From the NCBI GenBank assembly GCA_018334915.1, contig JAGXLB010000007.1, positions 1 through 40,093 on the forward strand: a DNA stretch of 40,093 nt, read 5' to 3'. Shown here in pieces: positions 25,413-38,128 of the stretch. A program made the translations under genes and the position numbers. The DNA comes from Candidatus Bipolaricaulota bacterium (GTDB lineage: Bacteria > Bipolaricaulota > Bipolaricaulia > M55B111). The notes beneath the pieces were generated by a model. It made no database searches. It saw only the letters and a program-made list of their open reading frames with translations, and had not been told where the DNA came from. Within the stretch, counting starts at the first letter, position 1; every line of letters begins with the position of its first letter.

Positions 25413-25534
25413 TTCTACAAACGACGGAAGGTTTTCCGGTTCCACCCATCAGAGCATGTATCGGTAGGTTTTTGCATCCGTACCAATCTTTGGCATCTAT
25501 TGAGGCCTAAAGGTCTCTACTACAATAAAAGTAA

Positions 25535-25756
25535 GTAGCCCGAACTCCCACGCTCGAGCGATTTGTTCGTTTATGCACCTTCCGGTAGGGAATTCACGTT
25601 CTCCAGACCCCCTTCCCCGGTTACCTGGCAACTGATTTAACCTTTAAAACATAGTAGTAGACAAAATCCCGGCAGCCAGGTAACCGGGGAAGGGGGTTAC
25701 TCAAACTGAACAATAAGGTACAGCTTATTAGTCGGCGCAGGAGCACTCCCTGCTTT
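25535..25756. repeat. 222-bp intergenic repeat, copy A (centre in orientation 1)
   Basis: First copy of a composite repeat, lying between the convergent ends of pheS and glmS. From left to right it has GTAG and a REP-like hairpin (25535-25560), a conserved segment with CCTTCCGGTAGGG, and a perfect 23-bp inverted repeat (25607-25629 and 25675-25697) around a 45-nt centre (25630-25674). After these comes a small inverted repeat AATAAG-GTACAG-CTTATT (25712-25729) and an end CTCCCTGCTTT. The outer parts align colinearly with copy B, but the centre is the reverse complement of B's. The flanks 25413-25534 and 25757-25833 hold only weak hairpins and no gene. The element may act as a bidirectional terminator. 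Confidence 0.85.
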
Positions 25757-25833
25757 TTGTGTGACAATAATTAAACTAACACAAGTCTTTGTATTCCGGG
25801 CCTCCGGCCAGTTTCTAAGAGAGACTACGCCCC

Positions 25834-27657
25834 TCACTCTACCGTTACGCTCTTCGCCAAATTCCGCGGCTGGTCCACGTCAGTTCCTCGCAGCACGGCG
25901 ACCTGATAGGCCAATAACTGGAGGGGAACGGTAAAAATCAGCGGAGTCAGGACCTTATCGGCTCTGGGCAGGTGTATCAACTCGTCAGCAATACTTTTCG
26001 TATCTTCCGTTAATTCGTCCGTAAATACGATTATCTTTCCCTTTCTGGCTCGAACCTCTTCTATATTGGAATAGACCTTGTCGTAAACGGAATTCTTGGT
26101 TATCAGGGCCACGACAGGCATATTTTCGTCGATGAGAGCAATTGGCCCGTGTTTTAGCTCTCCAGCCGGGTATCCCTCGGCGTGGATATAAGAAATTTCT
26201 TTCAGTTTCAGCGCTCCCTCCAGAGCCACAGGATAAAGGACGTCCCGGCCGAGGAATAGAAAATCGTCCTTCTCGTAAAAGACCTCGGCGAGTTCTTTTA
26301 TCCGGTCCACGTTCTCGAGCTGCTCCTGTAACAGCCCCGGCGCCCGGCTCAACTTTCCCGCCGCCTTTTTGGCTTCCGAAACGGTAACCTTCCCTTTCAT
26401 CCGGGCTATTTCTAAGCCCAGAAGTGACAGAGCTACGAGTTGAGACGTAAACGCCTTCGTCGAAGCCACCCCAATTTCCGGCCCGGCGTGGGTGTAAAGG
26501 ACGGCATCCGACCTCCTCGTAACGGTAGATCCCAGAACGTTCACCACGGAGGCGATAGTAGCATCAGCCTCCCGGGATTTTTCCAGACCCGCCAGGGTGT
26601 CAGCCGTTTCGCCGGATTGGGACACACCAACTACCAGCGAGTTCTCGTCCAGGGGAGGATTTCTGTAACGGAATTCCGACCCTATCTCGACCTCTATCGG
26701 AATATCCAGGTACTCTTCCCAGACGTATTTTGCAACTCTGCCGGCGTAATAAGAGGTACCACAGGCAACTATAAATATCTTCTCTGCTTTTGCTACGTCT
26801 TTTTCCCTCAGCTCGCCCTCGTCCATTTTGAGCCCACCGTCAGTGAAGCCCCTCCCTCTAAGGGTATCCCCGACGGCCTGAGGCTGCTCGTTTATCTCTT
26901 TCAACATGAAGTGCTTGTAACCTTCCTTCTGAGCAGCCACGGGGTCCCAGTCTATCGTTCTCGTCGTGGCTTCGGCCTCTCCACCTTCAAAATCCGTAAT
27001 CTCTATTCCGGATCCAGCAAGGGATACGATTTGATTATCCTCCAGGTAAATGATTTCTTTGGTATAATCGAGTATGGCTGGAACATCCGAGGCAATGAAT
27101 TGCTCGTCATCTGTAGACCCAACTACCAGGGGGCTCCCCCGACGCGCGCCGACGATCTTACCCGGTGTATCGGCGTCCACTACAGCAATAGCGAAAGTTC
27201 CGTCGACCTCGCCCAGAGCCGCCCGTACCTTCTCTTCTAATGACCCCTCCTGCTCCTCTATAAGATGAATCAGTACTTCCGTGTCGGTATCGGAAGAGAA
27301 CTCGTGGTCCCTCGATTCCAGTTCCTTTCTCAGCCTCCGATGATTTTCAATTATACCGTTATGGACCAAACCGTATCTATCAGTGCATCCCTGATGAGGA
27401 TGAGCGTTTACGTCGTTTGGCTCGCCGTGAGTTGCCCACCTCGTATGGCCAATTCCAACTTTTCCTGATTTCGGAGATTTGACCAGTGCATCTTCCAGCT
27501 GAGCGATTTTACCTTCCATCTTTTCAATTCCCAGCCCCTCATCTCCAATTATCGCGACGCCGGCCGAATCGTAACCCCTGTACTCGAGTTTTTTTAGACC
27601 ACTCAAGATAACGGGTTGAGCTTCTCTTTCACCCCGATATCCGATGATGCCACACAT
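25834..27657 (-). CDS. glmS: Glutamine-fructose-6-phosphate aminotransferase
   Basis: Makes glucosamine-6-phosphate, the first step to UDP-GlcNAc for peptidoglycan and LPS. The N-terminal Ntn-amidotransferase domain begins MCGIIGYRGE with nucleophile Cys2, and GHTRWATHGEPNDVNAHPH is present. Two SIS isomerase domains follow (for example VACGTSYYAG, VGVSQSGETADTL, AEGYPAGELKHGPIALI). The C-terminus DVDQPRNLAKSVTVE is canonical and 607 residues is full length. AAAGGAGG precedes the ATG. It lies 18 bp after the LolA-like gene, which leaves no room for a glmS ribozyme. Repeat copy A sits just beyond its stop codon. Confidence 0.96.
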   Translation of the reverse strand: MCGIIGYRGEREAQPVILSGLKKLEYRGYDSAGVAIIGDEGLGIEKMEGKIAQLEDALVKSPKSGKVGIGHTRWATHGEPNDVNAHPHQGCTDRYGLVHNGIIENHRRLRKELESRDHEFSSDTDTEVLIHLIEEQEGSLEEKVRAALGEVDGTFAIAVVDADTPGKIVGARRGSPLVVGSTDDEQFIASDVPAILDYTKEIIYLEDNQIVSLAGSGIEITDFEGGEAEATTRTIDWDPVAAQKEGYKHFMLKEINEQPQAVGDTLRGRGFTDGGLKMDEGELREKDVAKAEKIFIVACGTSYYAGRVAKYVWEEYLDIPIEVEIGSEFRYRNPPLDENSLVVGVSQSGETADTLAGLEKSREADATIASVVNVLGSTVTRRSDAVLYTHAGPEIGVASTKAFTSQLVALSLLGLEIARMKGKVTVSEAKKAAGKLSRAPGLLQEQLENVDRIKELAEVFYEKDDFLFLGRDVLYPVALEGALKLKEISYIHAEGYPAGELKHGPIALIDENMPVVALITKNSVYDKVYSNIEEVRARKGKIIVFTDELTEDTKSIADELIHLPRADKVLTPLIFTVPLQLLAYQVAVLRGTDVDQPRNLAKSVTVE

Positions 27658-27675
27658 AAAGTCCTCCTTTTTAAC

Positions 27676-28491
27676 CTAATCCGATATAACTTCCGCGTCT
27701 TCAGGTAATTTCGTAATTTCATCCAGGACCAGTTTGAGATTGATACTTACCTCCTCGACCTCCGTAGTAACCGGACCTTTTTCCTCGTCCTCAAAGTAGG
27801 TAATTAACTCGCGAGGCAATAAATTATCCGGGTCGAACTTAATAACCTGCCGGGAGAACCGATAACCTTCCTCCAGCGGTACGGCTTCTAGCACGTAATC
27901 ATCCTCCCCGAAATCAAACGAGACGGGCGTGGTTGAATCAGGGTCGTAAAGAGAGTTAGAAGAATCCTCATTCTCCAGCCAGGATACTGACGTCTCAAAA
28001 TCCAGCACGTTCTCCTTATCCCAGGGGAAGTAAATCTCCCCGGGACCACTTATCAGGTTTACGTCCAGCTCGTCCGAGCGTACAATCTCCAGCAGGTAAT
28101 CAGGGGTCAGGTTAGCAGCTTTGACGGGCATATTCGACTTCTTCAAATCTTTTTCGATAACCAGGTTCTGTGCCGGCATAAATTGATAAAGGAAATCTTC
28201 CTTCAGCAGGAAAAACTGACCCTGCATTTCAGGCGGAGACAGGTACTCGACCCGGAGAACTCTCGGCTCGGAAATAGCCCGCACTTCTACCTTTAAGGGA
28301 GGCTCCAGGCCCGATATTGCCAGCCTGGCGGAAAAATTTTCGATCTTCCGGTACTCTTCCTCCAGCCTTTCAATAAACTTATCCGTAGTCCGGATCTTTT
28401 CTTCTCCCAGGACCGAGTTGACCCCAACCAGGTTAAATACAAGCAACGTAACCAGAAAAAAGACCAGGCCCAAAGTATAATTTCGATTCAT
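27676..28491 (-). CDS. LolA-like outer-membrane lipoprotein-sorting protein
   Basis: Exported protein with a signal peptide (about 1-29, hydrophobic LGLVFFLVTLLVFNLVGVNS then VLGEE). The mature part resembles the LolA/RseB-like half-barrel that carries lipoproteins or lipids across the periplasm. Signs are the early EEYRKIENFSARL helix-strand, strands with EPRVLRVEYLSPPEMQGQFF, and the C-terminal FDPDNLLPRELITYFEDE. Length is 271, longer than E. coli LolA and closer to proteins annotated as lipoprotein-sorting in diderm Firmicutes and candidate phyla. It is the first gene of a pair with glmS. GAGGGGAG precedes the ATG, and a TATAAT lies upstream. Confidence 0.78.
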   Translation of the reverse strand: MNRNYTLGLVFFLVTLLVFNLVGVNSVLGEEKIRTTDKFIERLEEEYRKIENFSARLAISGLEPPLKVEVRAISEPRVLRVEYLSPPEMQGQFFLLKEDFLYQFMPAQNLVIEKDLKKSNMPVKAANLTPDYLLEIVRSDELDVNLISGPGEIYFPWDKENVLDFETSVSWLENEDSSNSLYDPDSTTPVSFDFGEDDYVLEAVPLEEGYRFSRQVIKFDPDNLLPRELITYFEDEEKGPVTTEVEEVSINLKLVLDEITKLPEDAEVISD

Positions 28492-28532
28492 TTAACTCCC
28501 CTCTCAAACGAACTCACTGCGAACTGTCCTAG

Positions 28533-28561
28533 ATTATACATAATAAACCCGTTGAGTCGAA
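28533..28561 (-). promoter_or_regulatory. Candidate lolA-like-glmS promoter
   Basis: On the minus strand a perfect TATAAT (28538-28533) with a poor TTCGAC -35 (28561-28556) at 17 bases. The predicted leader is about 35 nt. It overlaps the divergent pgk promoter. Confidence 0.42.
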
Positions 28562-28581
28562 CAGCGAAGTTGCGTTAAAAT
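28552..28581 (+). promoter_or_regulatory. Candidate pgk promoter
   Basis: TTGAGT (28552-28557), 18-base spacer, TAAAAT (28576-28581, 5 of 6). The leader would be about 75 nt before the pgk start. Confidence 0.5.
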
Positions 28582-28661
28582 TACCTATGTGATCGCTAGT
28601 TATTCAAGTAACGATCAAACTTACGTTAACCAGAACGGGCATTAAATTAAAAGGAGGAAAT

Positions 28662-29867
28662 ATGATAGATCCAACATCCCAGTACAGAACGATGGAAGAC
28701 CTGGCACTTCAGGGCAAGAGAGTACTCGTCCGGGTAGACTTCAACGTACCGTTAGAAGACGGCGAAATAACCAACGATAACAGGATAAAGAGCGCGCTGC
28801 CAACCATAAACTTTCTGACGGATGCGGGAGCAAAAGTTATTTTGACCAGCCACCTCGGAAGACCGGGCGGCGAAGTAAAAGAGGAACTCAGACTCGATCC
28901 TGTAGGTGAAAGGCTATCCGAATTAGTTGAAGTCGACGTGAAGAAGTTAGACGATACCATAGGACCGGAAGTAAAAGGCGAGGTGGAAGAAATGGACCCC
29001 GGGACTATAATCCTGCTGGAGAACACCCGCTTCTATTCCGGTGAGAAAGGAAAAGGTGAAGAATTTGTCGATAAACTGAGCGAACTCGGGGACTTTTTCG
29101 TTAGTGACGCGTTCGGGATGGTACACAGAAAGCACAGCTCCAACTACGGGGTAGCTACCAGACTTCCTGCGGCTGCCGGAAAGTTAATTTTAAAGGAAGT
29201 CGATGGGTTGACTCCTGCGGTGAAAGAACCAGATCACCCGTTTGTGGCAATCATAGGAGGTAAAAAGGCTTCCAGCAAGATAGGCGCCCTCTGGGACATG
29301 GTAGAGAGAGTGGACAAGTTCCTGATCGGCGGAGCTCTGGCTTTCACTTTCCTTCACGCTCAGGGCCATCTAGTAGGGGACTCTCTGATAGAGGAAGCAA
29401 TGGTCGAAGACGTAAGGGAGTTCCTCGACAAGGTAAAGGAAGACAGGAGTACCGAAGTCCTATTACCGGTAGACGCAAAGGTGTCACAGGAATTTAGCGC
29501 CGAGGGTGAAGTCAAAACCGTGGACGCGACGAAGATTCCACCCGACTGGATGGGAATAGATATCGGCCCGGCAACGATAGAGAACTACAGCAACGAGGTC
29601 GAAGAAGCTGAGACGTTAGTCTGGGCGGGCCCGCTCGGAGGATTCGAGCTTCATCCCTTTCAGGCTGGGACAAAAGAGGTAGCCCAGGCAGTAGCCGATA
29701 GCTCAGGTTACAGAATTATCGGCGGAGGCGAAACCGGTGCAGCGATCACTCAGTTCGGCCTGGCCGACGAGATGGATCACGTCTCTACTGGTGGGGGAGC
29801 CTGTCTCGGATTCCTGCGGGGCAAAGAACTTCCCGCGCTGGAAATTTTGAAGGTTAAAAACGAATAA
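28662..29867 (+). CDS. pgk: Phosphoglycerate kinase
   Basis: Glycolytic and gluconeogenic enzyme interconverting 1,3-bisphosphoglycerate and 3-phosphoglycerate with ADP/ATP. The signature KRVLVRVDFNVPLEDGEI is near residue 19-36, SHLGRPGGE follows, and the hinge has FVAIIGGKKASSKIGAL. The C-terminal nucleotide site has WAGPLGGFE and VSTGGGACLGFLRGKELP. Length is 401. AAAGGAGG lies 5 bases upstream of the ATG. Gap and other glycolysis genes are not adjacent. It converges with fabF across the repeat cluster at 29931-30220. Confidence 0.96.
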   Translation: MIDPTSQYRTMEDLALQGKRVLVRVDFNVPLEDGEITNDNRIKSALPTINFLTDAGAKVILTSHLGRPGGEVKEELRLDPVGERLSELVEVDVKKLDDTIGPEVKGEVEEMDPGTIILLENTRFYSGEKGKGEEFVDKLSELGDFFVSDAFGMVHRKHSSNYGVATRLPAAAGKLILKEVDGLTPAVKEPDHPFVAIIGGKKASSKIGALWDMVERVDKFLIGGALAFTFLHAQGHLVGDSLIEEAMVEDVREFLDKVKEDRSTEVLLPVDAKVSQEFSAEGEVKTVDATKIPPDWMGIDIGPATIENYSNEVEEAETLVWAGPLGGFELHPFQAGTKEVAQAVADSSGYRIIGGGETGAAITQFGLADEMDHVSTGGGACLGFLRGKELPALEILKVKNE

Positions 29868-29930
29868 CAACTAAGGATAACCAAGGGTCTCAGGAACCAC
29901 CTTAATAGTTAATAGAGCCCCTTCTTTTAA

Positions 29931-30023
29931 ACATAGCAAGCCGGGTCCCCACACCCGGTAAAAATAGGAGCCCGAGCTCCCGCGCCCGTTTAACATAGCA
30001 GTCCGAGCTCCCACGCTCGGGCG
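29931..30023. repeat. Three tandem 31-nt REP-like hairpin units
   Basis: Units start at 29931, 29962 and 29993, exactly 31 nt apart. Each begins ACATAGCA or AAATAGGA and carries a GC-rich core. Unit 1 forms CCGGGT/ACCCGG (29941-29946, 29953-29958) around a 6-nt loop. Unit 3 forms CCGAGC/GCTCGG (30003-30008, 30015-30020) around TCCCAC. Unit 2 pairs only partly. Unit 3 is also the left end of repeat copy B. Repeat copy A has one such unit, with a GTAG before the stem as in REP elements. Confidence 0.75.
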
Positions 30024-30220
30024 ATACGTTCTTTTACGCAACCTTCCGGTAGGGGATTCACGTTCTTTCAAACCCCTTTCCCCGGTTACCTGGCTGCCGG
30101 GATTTTGTCTACTGTCAGGATTTTAAGGTTAAATCAGCTGCCAGGTAACCGGGGAAAGGGTAAAGCAAACTGCACAATAAGGTACAGCTTATTACTCAGT
30201 GCTGAAGCGCTCCCTGCTTT
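29998..30220. repeat. 222-bp intergenic repeat, copy B (centre inverted)
   Basis: Second copy, between the convergent ends of pgk and fabF. The outer flanks run in the same direction as copy A and are roughly 80-85% identical by eye (shared CTCCCACGCTCG, CCTTCCGGTAGGG, ATTCACGTTCT, CAATAAGGTACAGCTTATTA, CTCCCTGCTTT). The inverted-repeat arms are 30072-30094 and 30140-30161, perfect over 21 bp with one G missing at the outer end. The 45-nt centre (30095-30139) matches the reverse complement of copy A's centre at 38 of 45 positions and the direct sequence at only 13. The right end abuts the fabF stop codon. The gap 29868-29930 on its left holds no gene. Confidence 0.85.
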
Positions 30221-32214: not shown

Positions 32215-34326
32215 CTAGGATAGTTGAGTTGAAAGAATAATGGCCAGAACGATTGCTCCACCGGCAACCGCAATTCCAATTCCCGGATCCAGACCAAGTT
32301 CGCCTTCAGTATCACTTTCACCCTCCGGGGCAGGTTCGGTCCTATTGGCATCCGATTCTTGCACTGTCTCCTCGTGCCCAATCGTGAAGGACGGACCCTG
32401 GACGGTCCTTATGGTGTCCTTCCTGCCTTCGGTTTGATACAGAGTGGTCCGCAGGTTCACCGACTTTCTGCTGGAGTAAGATCTGGGCGTGAGGTAAATG
32501 AATAACGATTTCCAGTTACCCGCTTGACTGTCAGTAATGGTAGTCTTGCCATTTAGATTGTCCAGAGTTATCCCTGCACTGCTCAACCCTGACAGGTCGG
32601 TCCTTTCTGCAAGCTGATTCCCCCCCGCGTCGTATAGTTCCAGTTTGCTAAAATCACTGCTCGTGGCCTCTCCCATGTTCTTAATCACGATCGGATTGGT
32701 CAATAAATTCAGCTTGTTTTCGTCCTTATCCATTATATCCAGGCGCTGAGCAAGAATTGCATTCCCGCTGGGGATCGATGGAGATCCTCCATATTCCCGG
32801 TTCACTTCGACTTTCTCTGCCCCCCAGGGATACACAGTCAATTCCTCGGCGGGCTTGAGTTCAGGACTCAATACGTCACTGGATGCTCCCTCACTTCCCC
32901 TGAACTGAACCAGTGGGCTGAGGGTTACTCCTTCTTCCGCGTCATTCGATACCCAGTAGTGAATCTCGAAAACGCCTCTTCCGTCGTCGGGGATTCTCCC
33001 GCCTCGTTGGGAGTCTAACGGCTGCCAGCTCCCGGAAAGCCCTAAACCAGCTCCCAGTTCAACCAACCCTCCGTCAGATTGCACCCTGTACACAGAAACG
33101 TTCTCAACCTCACTGTTCCTCAGAGAACCCTGGTTTGCCAGTTTAATTGAGTCTACCATAAAATCATTCTTGTCCAGATCGTCGTCCGAAAGAGTTAACC
33201 TTTGCCTGTATTTTTCACCCTGATTGATTACCCCTGACTCCCAGTCCGTTATGTCCTCAATCTTTTCCAGCCCCAGTTCTACCAGAGTTTTCGCGCTGTC
33301 ATCCGGCATCACTGCTTCCTGGTTAAATGGATAACCAGCCATACCGTTATTCTCTTTCGTATCCAGAATTACTCCCGTCTTTAACTCCAAACCGGGAGTG
33401 GGTCCATTCGACTTTAACTCGCCGGCGATCTCCAACTCGAGCCGACAATCGTCCGAGCAACTGCCATTCCACCAACCATCCTGAGTAGTTGAAATGGAGA
33501 TCTCGGATGCAGGAGCAGCAATGGATTTTGTAATGGATTTTTCGCTTACCTCTCCTTCCTCCTCGATTCTTAATCTCAAATGGAGGTGAGAGATATCCTC
33601 GCCAAAAACCAGAGCGTTTTCGCTAACCGAGTGGTTTTTTACGATGATCTTATCCACTTTCACACCGGCCTCGTTCGCATCTACGTCACGGAAAACGTAT
33701 TTGCCAATCGTATCGGTGGTCCCCGGCTGAAGTATCTCCCCTTCAAGCGATAGGGAACTAAACTCTTCGAATCCTGCCCGGTCAATCCCGTCCGGAGCCG
33801 AATCGATAACCCAGTTCGAGCTTACCGAATCCACTGCTTCTCCGTCTCGTTCCTGATAGACGTAGTGGAGCATAGTTCCCAGTTTCAAGGATACACTGCT
33901 CCCGTACTTACTGACTGGAATCATTTCAGGTTCGGCTGCCGAGACCCGTAGTTGAAAGTGTCCGCTTTCTCCCGAGTGAAGAGTTAAGCCGTCTCCGGGC
34001 AAGGTAAAAGTTATACCGGAGTTAATTCCGGATAGGGTCTGTAAAGTCACCGTGTTCCAGTCACCGGATTCCTTCCGGTATCGAACCCGGAGGTTCACCA
34101 GTTCGCTCGCAGAAGCTGTACCGTAATTCTTAACTGTTAGTTCTTTGATTCTTACAGGCTCCGTAACCTCAGCGACCGAAACCTCCTGAACGAGTATTCC
34201 TTTATCCTTGGGATTTAACGTAACGGATCTTGGGGCTTCAAGAGCAAACTTGGGTGCCCCCATTACAAGGAAAGGCAGGAGGAGCACAAGTAGAAGTGAC
34301 ACTAAAATTGGGGTTCGCCATCGCAT
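32215..34326 (-). CDS. Exported protein with four repeated beta-modules and a C-terminal membrane anchor
   Basis: I do not recognise a named family. There is a signal peptide at 1-23 (hydrophobic LVSLLLVLLLPFLVMGA). The bulk is four related modules of about 110 residues (about 45-160, 205-325, 370-480, 522-640), probably Ig-like sandwiches. Each has a strand ending KN or AN (KELTVKNYGTAS, DKIIVKNHSVSE, DSIKLANQGSLR, PIVIKNMGEATS), a middle strand (GHFQLRVSA, DCRLELEIAG, GVFEIHYWVS, WKSLFIYLTP), and a last strand pair (SVSLKLGTML, GLELKTGVIL, GVTLSPLVQF, SVNLRTTLYQ). An acidic Pro/Glu linker (about 655-680) leads to a C-terminal hydrophobic helix (IGIAVAGGAIVLAIILSTQL) without basic residues after it. 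AAAGGAGG precedes the ATG. It follows the beta-helix gene beyond a terminator. Confidence 0.72.
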   Translation of the reverse strand: MRWRTPILVSLLLVLLLPFLVMGAPKFALEAPRSVTLNPKDKGILVQEVSVAEVTEPVRIKELTVKNYGTASASELVNLRVRYRKESGDWNTVTLQTLSGINSGITFTLPGDGLTLHSGESGHFQLRVSAAEPEMIPVSKYGSSVSLKLGTMLHYVYQERDGEAVDSVSSNWVIDSAPDGIDRAGFEEFSSLSLEGEILQPGTTDTIGKYVFRDVDANEAGVKVDKIIVKNHSVSENALVFGEDISHLHLRLRIEEEGEVSEKSITKSIAAPASEISISTTQDGWWNGSCSDDCRLELEIAGELKSNGPTPGLELKTGVILDTKENNGMAGYPFNQEAVMPDDSAKTLVELGLEKIEDITDWESGVINQGEKYRQRLTLSDDDLDKNDFMVDSIKLANQGSLRNSEVENVSVYRVQSDGGLVELGAGLGLSGSWQPLDSQRGGRIPDDGRGVFEIHYWVSNDAEEGVTLSPLVQFRGSEGASSDVLSPELKPAEELTVYPWGAEKVEVNREYGGSPSIPSGNAILAQRLDIMDKDENKLNLLTNPIVIKNMGEATSSDFSKLELYDAGGNQLAERTDLSGLSSAGITLDNLNGKTTITDSQAGNWKSLFIYLTPRSYSSRKSVNLRTTLYQTEGRKDTIRTVQGPSFTIGHEETVQESDANRTEPAPEGESDTEGELGLDPGIGIAVAGGAIVLAIILSTQLS

Positions 34327-34550: not shown

Positions 34551-37500
34551 CTACTTTCTGACGATGAACTTCATGACCGGACTTTCATATGTATCGTCCG
34601 TCTCTACGGTCACAGTGTAAATGTAGAGTCCATTTTGAAGGTTATTGAGATCGGTAAGGTTATCTACGGAGTCCAGCGTGACTAACTTACGACCGGAGAG
34701 ATCAAATACGTTTATTGTTATTGAACTTACCGCAGAAGTAACCGGGTCTCCTTCCGAATTCTTCAACACTACATGGGGAGTCTCAGTGCCGTCTATCGGT
34801 ACAGGCTTGATCCCCGACTTTGATGTCTCTCCATTCTGACCCCAATGAGGTTCAAGATTCTCACCTGGTCCCGGTACCTCTCCACCAACATTTATGGTAA
34901 TTGTTTCCGCAAGTGCCCCTTCGTCCACTTCCAAAGTTACACTATAAGTTCCGTTTTGAATAGGTACAAATGAGTGAGTATTGGTATAAGTCTCACCCGG
35001 ATCCAATTCAGGTACGTTTTCCTTGGAGGTTTCCATTACTATATTATCGTCCGGGTTCTTTACGATCATCTGGACACTTTGCCCACTTGTTTTGGTTTCA
35101 GAGACGTTCTCTAACGTGTATTCCAGTTCCACGGTCTGGTTGACCTGAGGATCCGTAGTAAGCGTCCTGAATTCACTTACCGAAAGGATCTCAATTACAA
35201 GAACCGGGCTATCCAGTAATCCGTCTATAAGTACGTGGTCAGGTGCTATCAGGTTGTACCTTATAGTTTGTTCAGTGGCTCCCGGACCCCAGTAGTTGTT
35301 GGTCGCGTCTACCTTGTAAAGGTTTCCCGTATCCTCGGTTTTAGTCTTAAGTTCCGAAGCGTCTATTGTCGTGCAGCAGTCCACTAGATTATTTTCGTTA
35401 ATATGGTTACTCGTATCTTTCGCCGTATCCGAATCCGAAATAGCTTTTTCTTCTAATACCTTAACAGCCGTGGAATAGCCGTTGAATTCGTTATGGTTGA
35501 TATCCGCATTCCAGGCATCCAACACGACAGCAGTTCCGAGTCCGATACAGGCTCCTTTAGCGCCAGTGCGGAATACGTTTTCCTGGACAGTTACGCTTGA
35601 ACTCGAGTTCTCCGCCTTGAGCCATAATCCAATCTCCGTTTCCTCTCCTACTACTATGTTCTCCTGGACTGTCACGGAATTCAATTGTCCAGCAACCAAT
35701 GCCATGTTAAGCTCTTCGTTTCCGTTGTATTCCTCTTCGTTGCCGGCGAAGAACGTGGTATTCTCTTTGACCGCAAAGTTACTTATCGTACCGGTCGGAT
35801 TGCTTGGATCGGGCGAAGTTACCACCAAACCTTCCTGGTTGCCGGAAAGCACGTTCCCTTTTATTCCACCGTTACTTTCAGTACCCAGCAGGCTGTTACC
35901 GAATTCGATAACCAGACCCGCGGAAGAAACGTTGTTACCGACAAACGAACTGTTCTCAACCCGGGGGTTCATTACATCTCCTGCAGCCACCAGGCTTGCC
36001 CCGTCTTCGTGGTTATAGTGGAACTCAGAGTCATTTATGACAACGTTATTGGAGGAATTAAGGAAGTCCTCAGCCGAGTTTATTTCCAGACCGAGACCCT
36101 TATTGTAACTGGCAGAGACGTCCTTAAACTTTATGGCTCCTGCAGAATCACTCGACCCAATATTGCTGTCAGCGTTATTGGTAATGAGCTTAACACCATT
36201 GTTCCCGTTCTTGTTGCCTTCTTTACCGAATTGTGCGCTGGTAACGGTTACTCCGCTTATATCTCCACTATCAGATTCTACTAACAGTCCATTATTTCCG
36301 TTGCCGTTCGCGGTTATCTCTCTAACCTGGTCGTCGTCGAGATCCTCAAGGGATACGTTTTTGACGCTCTCTTTTCCAAATATTTTGACACCGTTTTTGC
36401 CGTTGTCGTTGAATTTTGCTAACTTGGCAATATGAATGCCATCAACAGTGGCTCCTTTAATTCTTAAGCCATTGCCGTAACCAGGTTCTATATCGCCGGA
36501 ATCGTTATTTCCGGTATCGTTATTGCCCGCTTCCGTATTTTCGATTACTACGTCCTCTACCTCATCATAAGCGCCATCCTGATAAGCGGCCAATAAAGCT
36601 ATCCCGTCACTCAAATTCTGTTCCGCCAGGCCTTCTACAGTCATGTTCTCGAGGCCACCGTCGTGATCGTAAAATTCGGACCCTTTAATCTCGAGCCCTG
36701 TAATGCCCTCGTAAGATGCAACAGTTAATCCAAACCCTTGTTCGTTTCTGTCGTCACCTTTTATATCCTCGTTAAACTGACTATCGGATACTTCAACCCC
36801 TGGGGAAGAAGTTATGACCTTGGAAACGAAGAATCCCGCTCCACCACTCTTGTTGTCATAAATCTTTGCGTTGTCGATGGTTACCTTATCCAGTTTCGCG
36901 GGGCTATATTTGATTTCAGCCACAGCTGAACCGTCTGAGTCCGGGAATGGAGGCGTATCACTGTCTCCAAAAGCAACCTCACCTACCAGGATTCCAAACC
37001 CGCCGTCGACCGCACCTTCTACGCCGTCGCCCAGAGAATCTCCATTCTTGGATATCTCCGTATTTTTCACTGTTAGATCTATGGAAGATATCTCGTGGTT
37101 GGGGCTAGCGGACCAGTTTCCCAGTATATAGATTCCATTATCATCGTTACTTTTAATCTCAAAACCTTCTACCCAAAAACCACTTACCTTCGTGACTGTA
37201 GTTCCGTTTATCCTTATTCCGTCCTTGTTCTTTTCTATTCCATACTTGTAGGCCTGTTCCTTGTCTAAACCCGTGCTATTTTCTAACCTGATATTTTCTA
37301 CTTTCCCATGGTTGTTGAAGTGAAGGCCGTGCCCATCTGTGGAACCCAGTCCACAATTACCAATGTATAATTCATTAAAGTTTAGACCGCTGACATCTCC
37401 AACCGAACCCGCAAAGTTTATTCCGTCTAACCTTACACCATCAATCCTAACGTCGGTAAAATCTACTTCCGCGTAGTCCGTACTTCTGCCACCGTATTCC

Positions 37501-38108
37501 TCTATGTTGCCAGCAAAGCGAATCCCGTAGTCAAAGTTACCGTTGGCAGCACAGTTGGGAATCTGTAAATTCTCGAACGACATCCACCTTATGTCTTCAC
37601 AGGCACAGGGATTTTCTATATCGACCAAAATAGCATTATCTACGGTCTCATTGAGACTGCCGGTGGGCTCAAAATCCAGATCCTCAATATGCGCGCCCTC
37701 TTTCTGAATCAAAATACCGCTGGTAACTGTCTCAGGACCGGAACCGGTGTCTATCTCGTGGCCTCCCCCATAGGGACCTTCTTGAGCGATAACCACTACG
37801 CTGTCTGAGGCAGTTACGTCAGCAGAAGGCTTTAGAGTTATATTTCGGACGTCAATAATCAGAGCAGCATCCTGTGTTAGAGTAGCTTCATCAAGAGCTA
37901 TAGTATCCCCTGGCTCTACGTCCGGAACTCCATCACCCGTAAAATCAATGCTACTCAACTCGTTACCAACTAATACGTCAAAATCCCCTTGATTTTCGAT
38001 AATCCAGGTATCGCCGTCTTCCGTAACAGCCAATCCAGAAGCGGTCACGAGCAAAACTGATAAAAATACTGTCAGTATTAAGCCAACCTTGTACTTAGTC
38101 AATTTCAT
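34551..38108 (-). CDS. Secreted right-handed beta-helix protein with CARDB-like and type IX-like C-terminal domains
   Basis: Large surface or secreted protein. The signal peptide covers 1-27 (LILTVFLSVLLVTASGLA). From about 35 to 930 there are many Asn/Gly-rich turns of a parallel beta-helix (for example ENNTDTGNNDSGDIEPGYGN-like stretches, GNGNNGLLVESDSG), as in pectate-lyase-like and right-handed-helix repeat proteins. A CARDB-like Ig domain follows near 970-1070 (QTVELEYTLENVSETKTSGQ), then a C-terminal domain with NVFDLSGRKLVTL, NLQNGLYIYTV and the end KFIVRK, the pattern of type IX sorting domains. The start is the ATG at 38108, 7 bases after GGAGGT; the upstream TTG is less likely. It is 20 bp after the PorV-like gene, clearly cotranscribed. 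Catalytic residues of a lyase were not identified, so it may be adhesive or structural. Confidence 0.82.
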   Translation of the reverse strand: MKLTKYKVGLILTVFLSVLLVTASGLAVTEDGDTWIIENQGDFDVLVGNELSSIDFTGDGVPDVEPGDTIALDEATLTQDAALIIDVRNITLKPSADVTASDSVVVIAQEGPYGGGHEIDTGSGPETVTSGILIQKEGAHIEDLDFEPTGSLNETVDNAILVDIENPCACEDIRWMSFENLQIPNCAANGNFDYGIRFAGNIEEYGGRSTDYAEVDFTDVRIDGVRLDGINFAGSVGDVSGLNFNELYIGNCGLGSTDGHGLHFNNHGKVENIRLENSTGLDKEQAYKYGIEKNKDGIRINGTTVTKVSGFWVEGFEIKSNDDNGIYILGNWSASPNHEISSIDLTVKNTEISKNGDSLGDGVEGAVDGGFGILVGEVAFGDSDTPPFPDSDGSAVAEIKYSPAKLDKVTIDNAKIYDNKSGGAGFFVSKVITSSPGVEVSDSQFNEDIKGDDRNEQGFGLTVASYEGITGLEIKGSEFYDHDGGLENMTVEGLAEQNLSDGIALLAAYQDGAYDEVEDVVIENTEAGNNDTGNNDSGDIEPGYGNGLRIKGATVDGIHIAKLAKFNDNGKNGVKIFGKESVKNVSLEDLDDDQVREITANGNGNNGLLVESDSGDISGVTVTSAQFGKEGNKNGNNGVKLITNNADSNIGSSDSAGAIKFKDVSASYNKGLGLEINSAEDFLNSSNNVVINDSEFHYNHEDGASLVAAGDVMNPRVENSSFVGNNVSSAGLVIEFGNSLLGTESNGGIKGNVLSGNQEGLVVTSPDPSNPTGTISNFAVKENTTFFAGNEEEYNGNEELNMALVAGQLNSVTVQENIVVGEETEIGLWLKAENSSSSVTVQENVFRTGAKGACIGLGTAVVLDAWNADINHNEFNGYSTAVKVLEEKAISDSDTAKDTSNHINENNLVDCCTTIDASELKTKTEDTGNLYKVDATNNYWGPGATEQTIRYNLIAPDHVLIDGLLDSPVLVIEILSVSEFRTLTTDPQVNQTVELEYTLENVSETKTSGQSVQMIVKNPDDNIVMETSKENVPELDPGETYTNTHSFVPIQNGTYSVTLEVDEGALAETITINVGGEVPGPGENLEPHWGQNGETSKSGIKPVPIDGTETPHVVLKNSEGDPVTSAVSSITINVFDLSGRKLVTLDSVDNLTDLNNLQNGLYIYTVTVETDDTYESPVMKFIVRK

Positions 38109-38128
38109 CAATCATACCTCCTTATAAT

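Follow-up and report, generated by a model that had tools for sequence, protein, structure and literature searches.

Template switching between the arms of an inverted repeat is known from yeast, where it both homogenizes the arms and inverts the spacer (PMC8604942), and loop inversions have been described at rRNA hairpins and also at microRNA hairpins (PMC8794818). The spacers in these published cases are mostly shorter than the one reported here, at 2–8 nt (PMC8604942, PMC8794818). In plant plastomes, small inversions or flip-flop hairpin loops place hairpin-bounded loops both ways round; they are homoplastic and often lie between tail-to-tail genes (PMC6824564). Invertons, the basis of recombinase-driven phase variation, likewise hold DNA between inverted repeats in both orientations (PMC11892184). 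Among dispersed repeats, REP/BIME sequences with their RAYT (Y1) transposases are high-copy intergenic palindromes.

The window analysed here is a stretch of 40,093 nt from Candidatus Bipolaricaulota bacterium (contig JAGXLB010000007.1, positions 1–40,093). It contains two copies, A and B, of a hairpin-bearing repeat, and the centre of copy B is inverted with respect to that of copy A inside the same type of flank. The features are as follows; G002 is the genome of a sister species in the same genus.

25534–25756, + strand: copy A with its type II flanks, the stretch common to copy B; direct repeat families D7, D9 and D1; locus syntenic in G002:C5.
25607–25629, + strand: left arm of copy A, 23 bp; perfect complement of the right arm.
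25630–25674, + strand: centre of copy A, 45 nt, with the family core orientation on the + strand (core match 25621–25683, +); reversed in the G002 orthologue.
25675–25697, + strand: right arm of copy A, 23 bp; perfect complement of the left arm.
29997–30220, + strand: copy B with its type II flanks; BLAST identity of 77% to the copy A flanks, + strand; syntenic with G002:C5:4430–5080.
30072–30094, + strand: left arm of copy B, 23 nt; same arms as copy A.
30095–30139, − strand: centre of copy B, 45 nt, with the family core orientation on the − strand (core match 30086–30148, −); reverse-complement match to A at 38/45 positions.
30140–30161, + strand: right arm of copy B, 22 nt; same arms as copy A.

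The outer flanks of A and B are colinear over ~220 bp, with 81–83% identity (direct repeats D1, D7 and D9). Compared directly, the two 45-nt centres match at 13 of 45 positions, and as reverse complements at 38 of 45; the latter value was reached by none of 100 000 composition-preserving shuffles, the best of which gave 24. The two match counts, together with the perfect 23-bp arms of A and the 23/22-nt arms of B, had been given in the original prediction, and every one was the same when recomputed. Its reading of the pair as a flipping segment also holds, as mixed orientations are found among the other copies and opposite states at the same loci in related genomes (G002 and G004), the A and B loci included. 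This is a real, recurrent, in-place inversion of a hairpin centre carried by a MITE, and it most likely results from copying errors at the hairpin.

As in template-switch spacer inversion (PMC8604942, PMC8794818), the arms stay in place while the spacer reverses, the change is reversible and recurrent, and the arms show paired changes. The present case differs in that the spacer is 45–78 nt and not a few nucleotides, and in that it concerns a dispersed family in bacterial intergenic DNA, in which between about a third and a half of the orthologues are in the opposite state. The plastid sites are single-copy (PMC6824564), whereas the present sites belong to a repeat family of a bacterial chromosome. 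In contrast to invertons (PMC11892184), there is no adjacent invertase and no orientation bias with respect to genes, unrelated arms also flip and orthologues partly agree in state. Y1 transposase genes do occur in these genomes, but the flipping core is not beside them, although other REP-like repeats are; REP/RAYT hairpin transposition was rejected because no core is present at the Y1 loci (L298–L301). The original prediction knew of no described element that fits exactly. This needs to be qualified, since many copies make up the middle of what looks like an ordinary MITE and since hairpin-bounded spacer inversion is an already described type of mutation, known from yeast, rRNA and plastids. 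The part that stands concerns scale and setting: a bacterial MITE with a centre of near-randomized orientation is new as far as our literature search showed.

The unit shared by the copies is a 63-nt core consisting of TTACCTGGC, the asymmetric 45-nt centre and GCCAGGTAA. The genome to which the window belongs (G000) has it at about 45 sites, and core pattern matches number ~165 in G002 and ~30 in G004, while G001 has a single partial match. Family copies were collected by search and from coordinates, all of the genomes being fragmented drafts from one genus, and 175 were extracted (54 from G000, 90 from G002, 24 from G004, six from G003 and one from G001). The core is absent from the only other genus of the same family and order that was examined, and on these searches the family appears to be restricted to one uncultivated bacterial genus. 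The stem extends over ~21 bp, with nine conserved inner pairs within the core and ~12 variable outer pairs, and it ends abruptly at outer pair 12. Between copies the sequence of the outer arms varies, yet they remain largely complementary. Mean pairwise identity between copies is 82% for the centre, 88% for the inner arms, which are the best-conserved part of the element, and 61% for the flanks, against a shuffled baseline of 58%. A core so much more conserved than its flanks implies either a sequence-specific function for which orientation does not matter or an exchange of cores between copies, and template switching inside one locus does not account for it. Across loci and species the right half of the centre occurs in two recurrent variants, AGTAGACAAAATCC and AGTAGAGGTAATCC, which may have been mixed by exchange between copies.

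Judged by their terminal repeats and target-site duplications, many copies are the centre of a MITE-like element. Both CTCAGTTCTTTCACC-like terminal repeats are present within 170 nt of the core in 65 copies; the element is ~201 bp long, with 15-bp terminal inverted repeats, no ORF and the hairpin in its centre. Exact 5-bp target duplications flank 22 of these two-ended copies, and a further 18 agree at four of five positions. Size, terminal repeats, 5-bp duplications, high copy number and the lack of an ORF are all as in bacterial MITEs, from which the element differs in its internal perfect hairpin and in a conserved core that lies in nearly random orientation. The window copies differ further: A and B have a second flank type (type II, compared over seven copies) without the MITE terminal repeats and are not among the 65. 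In one nested insertion (L114; G002:C69:18468–18735) a MITE copy lies inside the core of another with TAGTA duplicated, which indicates that the family was still mobile after it had spread.

Orthologous loci give the most direct view of the inversion. G002:C5 is syntenic with positions 2571–34414 of the window, and in it the core is reversed at both the A and the B locus, with the flanks aligning on either side. Under a strict definition of orthology, which asks for flank alignments that come within ~60 nt of the core on each side, 11 loci were available, of which five are flipped:

Flipped: A, B, G000_C33_26837 and G000_C253_1584 versus G002; G000_C140_43874 versus G004.
Unflipped: G000_C163_6894, C137_2566, C54_7157, C98_2537 and C195_44700 versus G002; C80_3216 versus G004.

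When one-sided cases are added to the strict ones, seven of 20 comparisons are flipped. At a flank divergence of roughly 12–20%, between a third and a half of orthologous copies are flipped. Two MITE insertions in opposite orientation are excluded at these loci by the colinear flanks.

The same conclusion is reached across copies. Each flank alignment between copies was classed by whether it ran in the same direction as the core or in the opposite one, and 124 copies were linked in one flank-homology component in which 1573 of 1574 closed sign checks are consistent, which gives the core a well-defined orientation with respect to the flanks. Among these copies with alignable flanks both states are common, at 80 to 44, and copy B is therefore not a lone exception to a single orientation held everywhere else; within the type II component the ratio is 4:3. 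On a tree built from the flanks only, orientation requires at least 31 changes, compared with 35.7 for shuffled labels, and well-supported branches force at least five. Among flank nearest neighbours (123 copies) the centre type is the same in 75 cases versus 42.6 expected, and orientation in 80 versus 66.8, a slight excess. Neighbours thus share centre type strongly and orientation barely, from which it follows that orientation turns over faster than the sequence lineage of the centre. Two old subfamilies of fixed orientation were considered and rejected on the flips at orthologous loci and the flank tree. What these data show is repeated inversion of the centre, in place, at many loci.

No function is evident for the orientation of the centre, which is unbiased with respect to neighbouring genes (25 to 31 in codirectional gene pairs). 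As a raw count, 51 of the 135 copies classified lie between convergent genes; many of the plastid small inversions are at sites between tail-to-tail genes (PMC6824564). The hairpin had no Rfam match above the gathering score, only sub-threshold generic hairpins, and a riboswitch or other structured RNA was rejected for this reason.

We consider it probable that the centre flips by template switching between the arms of the hairpin, as a mutation in a MITE-like repeat and not as a programmed switch. The replicating strand, having already copied one arm, would pair at the other arm with the complementary strand; the centre would then be copied from the wrong template until the polymerase switched back in the far arm, leaving the centre reversed and the flanks unchanged. 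By copying one arm from the other, the same switching could also help to keep the stems matched. The element would have dispersed as a MITE, and flipping would not call for a recombinase of its own. At the flipped orthologous loci the spacer is reversed with arms and flanks in place, as template switching would leave it, and we infer polymerase switching as the flipping agent from the published precedents. Of the candidate causes listed in the original prediction it is the best fit, a dedicated recombinase being disfavoured.

Comparison of orthologous arms shows 20 pairs that have changed jointly and are still complementary, 12 of them by transversion, a change that cannot arise via a single G·U intermediate. 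Single-sided breaks number 131 against these 20 paired changes, so that arm correction is at most occasional. Mismatches in the stems are strand-symmetric (G·T, 236; A·C, 222), which speaks against the stem being selected as RNA; such selection was rejected on this symmetry together with the unbiased orientation in codirectional pairs.

The flipping is not confined to one arm sequence. When further hairpins were scanned in stretches that are orthologous or homologous, the scan revealed a second, unrelated family with 16-bp arms (CCAGCACTCAATTGGR) and a 78-nt spacer that is likewise inverted (L005:1264–1373, G000:C89:3476–3585; also L303, L304, L312 and L313), and a search confirmed both orientations inside the same flanks. 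In the same scan, none of 13 hairpins with 9–11-bp arms was inverted. Dependence on the arms is favoured over dependence on a sequence-specific enzyme.

The alternatives that survive best invoke a protein. The core could be the recognition site of a genus-encoded protein (a recombinase, a hairpin-processing transposase or a nucleoid protein) that flips the centre in the life cycle of the element; flipping would in that case belong to the element itself, and the conservation of the core far beyond the flanks would be explained, but we think this doubtful. In another reading, the inner arms (TTACCTGGC/GCCAGGTAA) are recognized by a site-specific recombinase or invertase, and the centre is turned round in the manner of a very small inverton, which we likewise regard as unlikely. 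The inner arms, at 88% identity, are indeed the most conserved segment, and tyrosine recombinase genes are found in every genome searched, with 20 in G000. However, no invertase lies next to the element: the neighbours of A and B are largely housekeeping genes (pheS, glmS, pgk and fabF) with one unassigned ORF, which bears out the earlier observation that no recombinase gene adjoins either copy. Furthermore, recombinase number does not track copy number across genomes, and in the copy-richest genome, G002, two tyrosine recombinases and no serine resolvase were detected, though this genome is only 86% complete. The inversion at the unrelated CCAGCACTCAATTGGR arms and the lack of orientation bias relative to neighbouring genes also count against it.

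Less probable still is exchange between copies, by ectopic gene conversion or intermolecular template switching, in which the palindromic arms let a foreign core replace the resident one either way round. Cores are much more alike than flanks, and copy B has a type I-like centre within a type II flank while the centre of its orthologue ranks only 84th of 89 in similarity; some reversals may therefore stem from such exchange. At copy A, on the other hand, the centre is 98% identical to that of the flipped orthologue (rank 2 of 89), and centre type follows flank lineage while orientation hardly does. An assembly artefact, with short-read assemblers traversing the hairpin in the wrong direction, is very improbable: every genome is a fragmented draft, and a de Bruijn graph with k below the arm length can be misled by a perfect inverted repeat, but ordinary reads span a whole hairpin of ~90 bp with arms of only ~21–24 bp, the flipped A orthologues also carry paired base changes in both arms, and orientation agrees at all six identical loci of G003 and G004, although this agreement is weak evidence as several of these hairpins have degraded arms and the assemblies are possibly not independent.

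If template switching is the cause, the repeat is useful as a record of how often such tiny inversions occur. Hairpin-bounded inversions are usually observed site by site, whereas here well over a hundred copies with alignable flanks act as parallel reporters, so that in a bacterial lineage the rate of inversion could be set against point mutation, arm length and spacer length. With flips this frequent, an alignment or RNA-covariation analysis that is blind to inversion would mistake these loci for clustered substitutions or compensatory pairs.

Three long ORFs of 271, 703 and 1186 amino acids lie between or near the copies (window 27676–28491, 32215–34326 and 34551–38111 (− strand)), with no Pfam match at an E value of 1e-5. 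Among named organisms the glmS of the window has no near relative; its best match, at 54%, is to an uncultivated MAG. REP-like palindromes of ~31 nt (AGCAGnCCGAGCTCCCACGCTCGGGC type) adjoin copy B at 29927–30020 of the window. In G004, repeats of a similar kind lie around a Y1_Tnp (PF01797) gene (L299:1137–1212 and 1994–2427), which suggests a separate REP/RAYT system in the genus.
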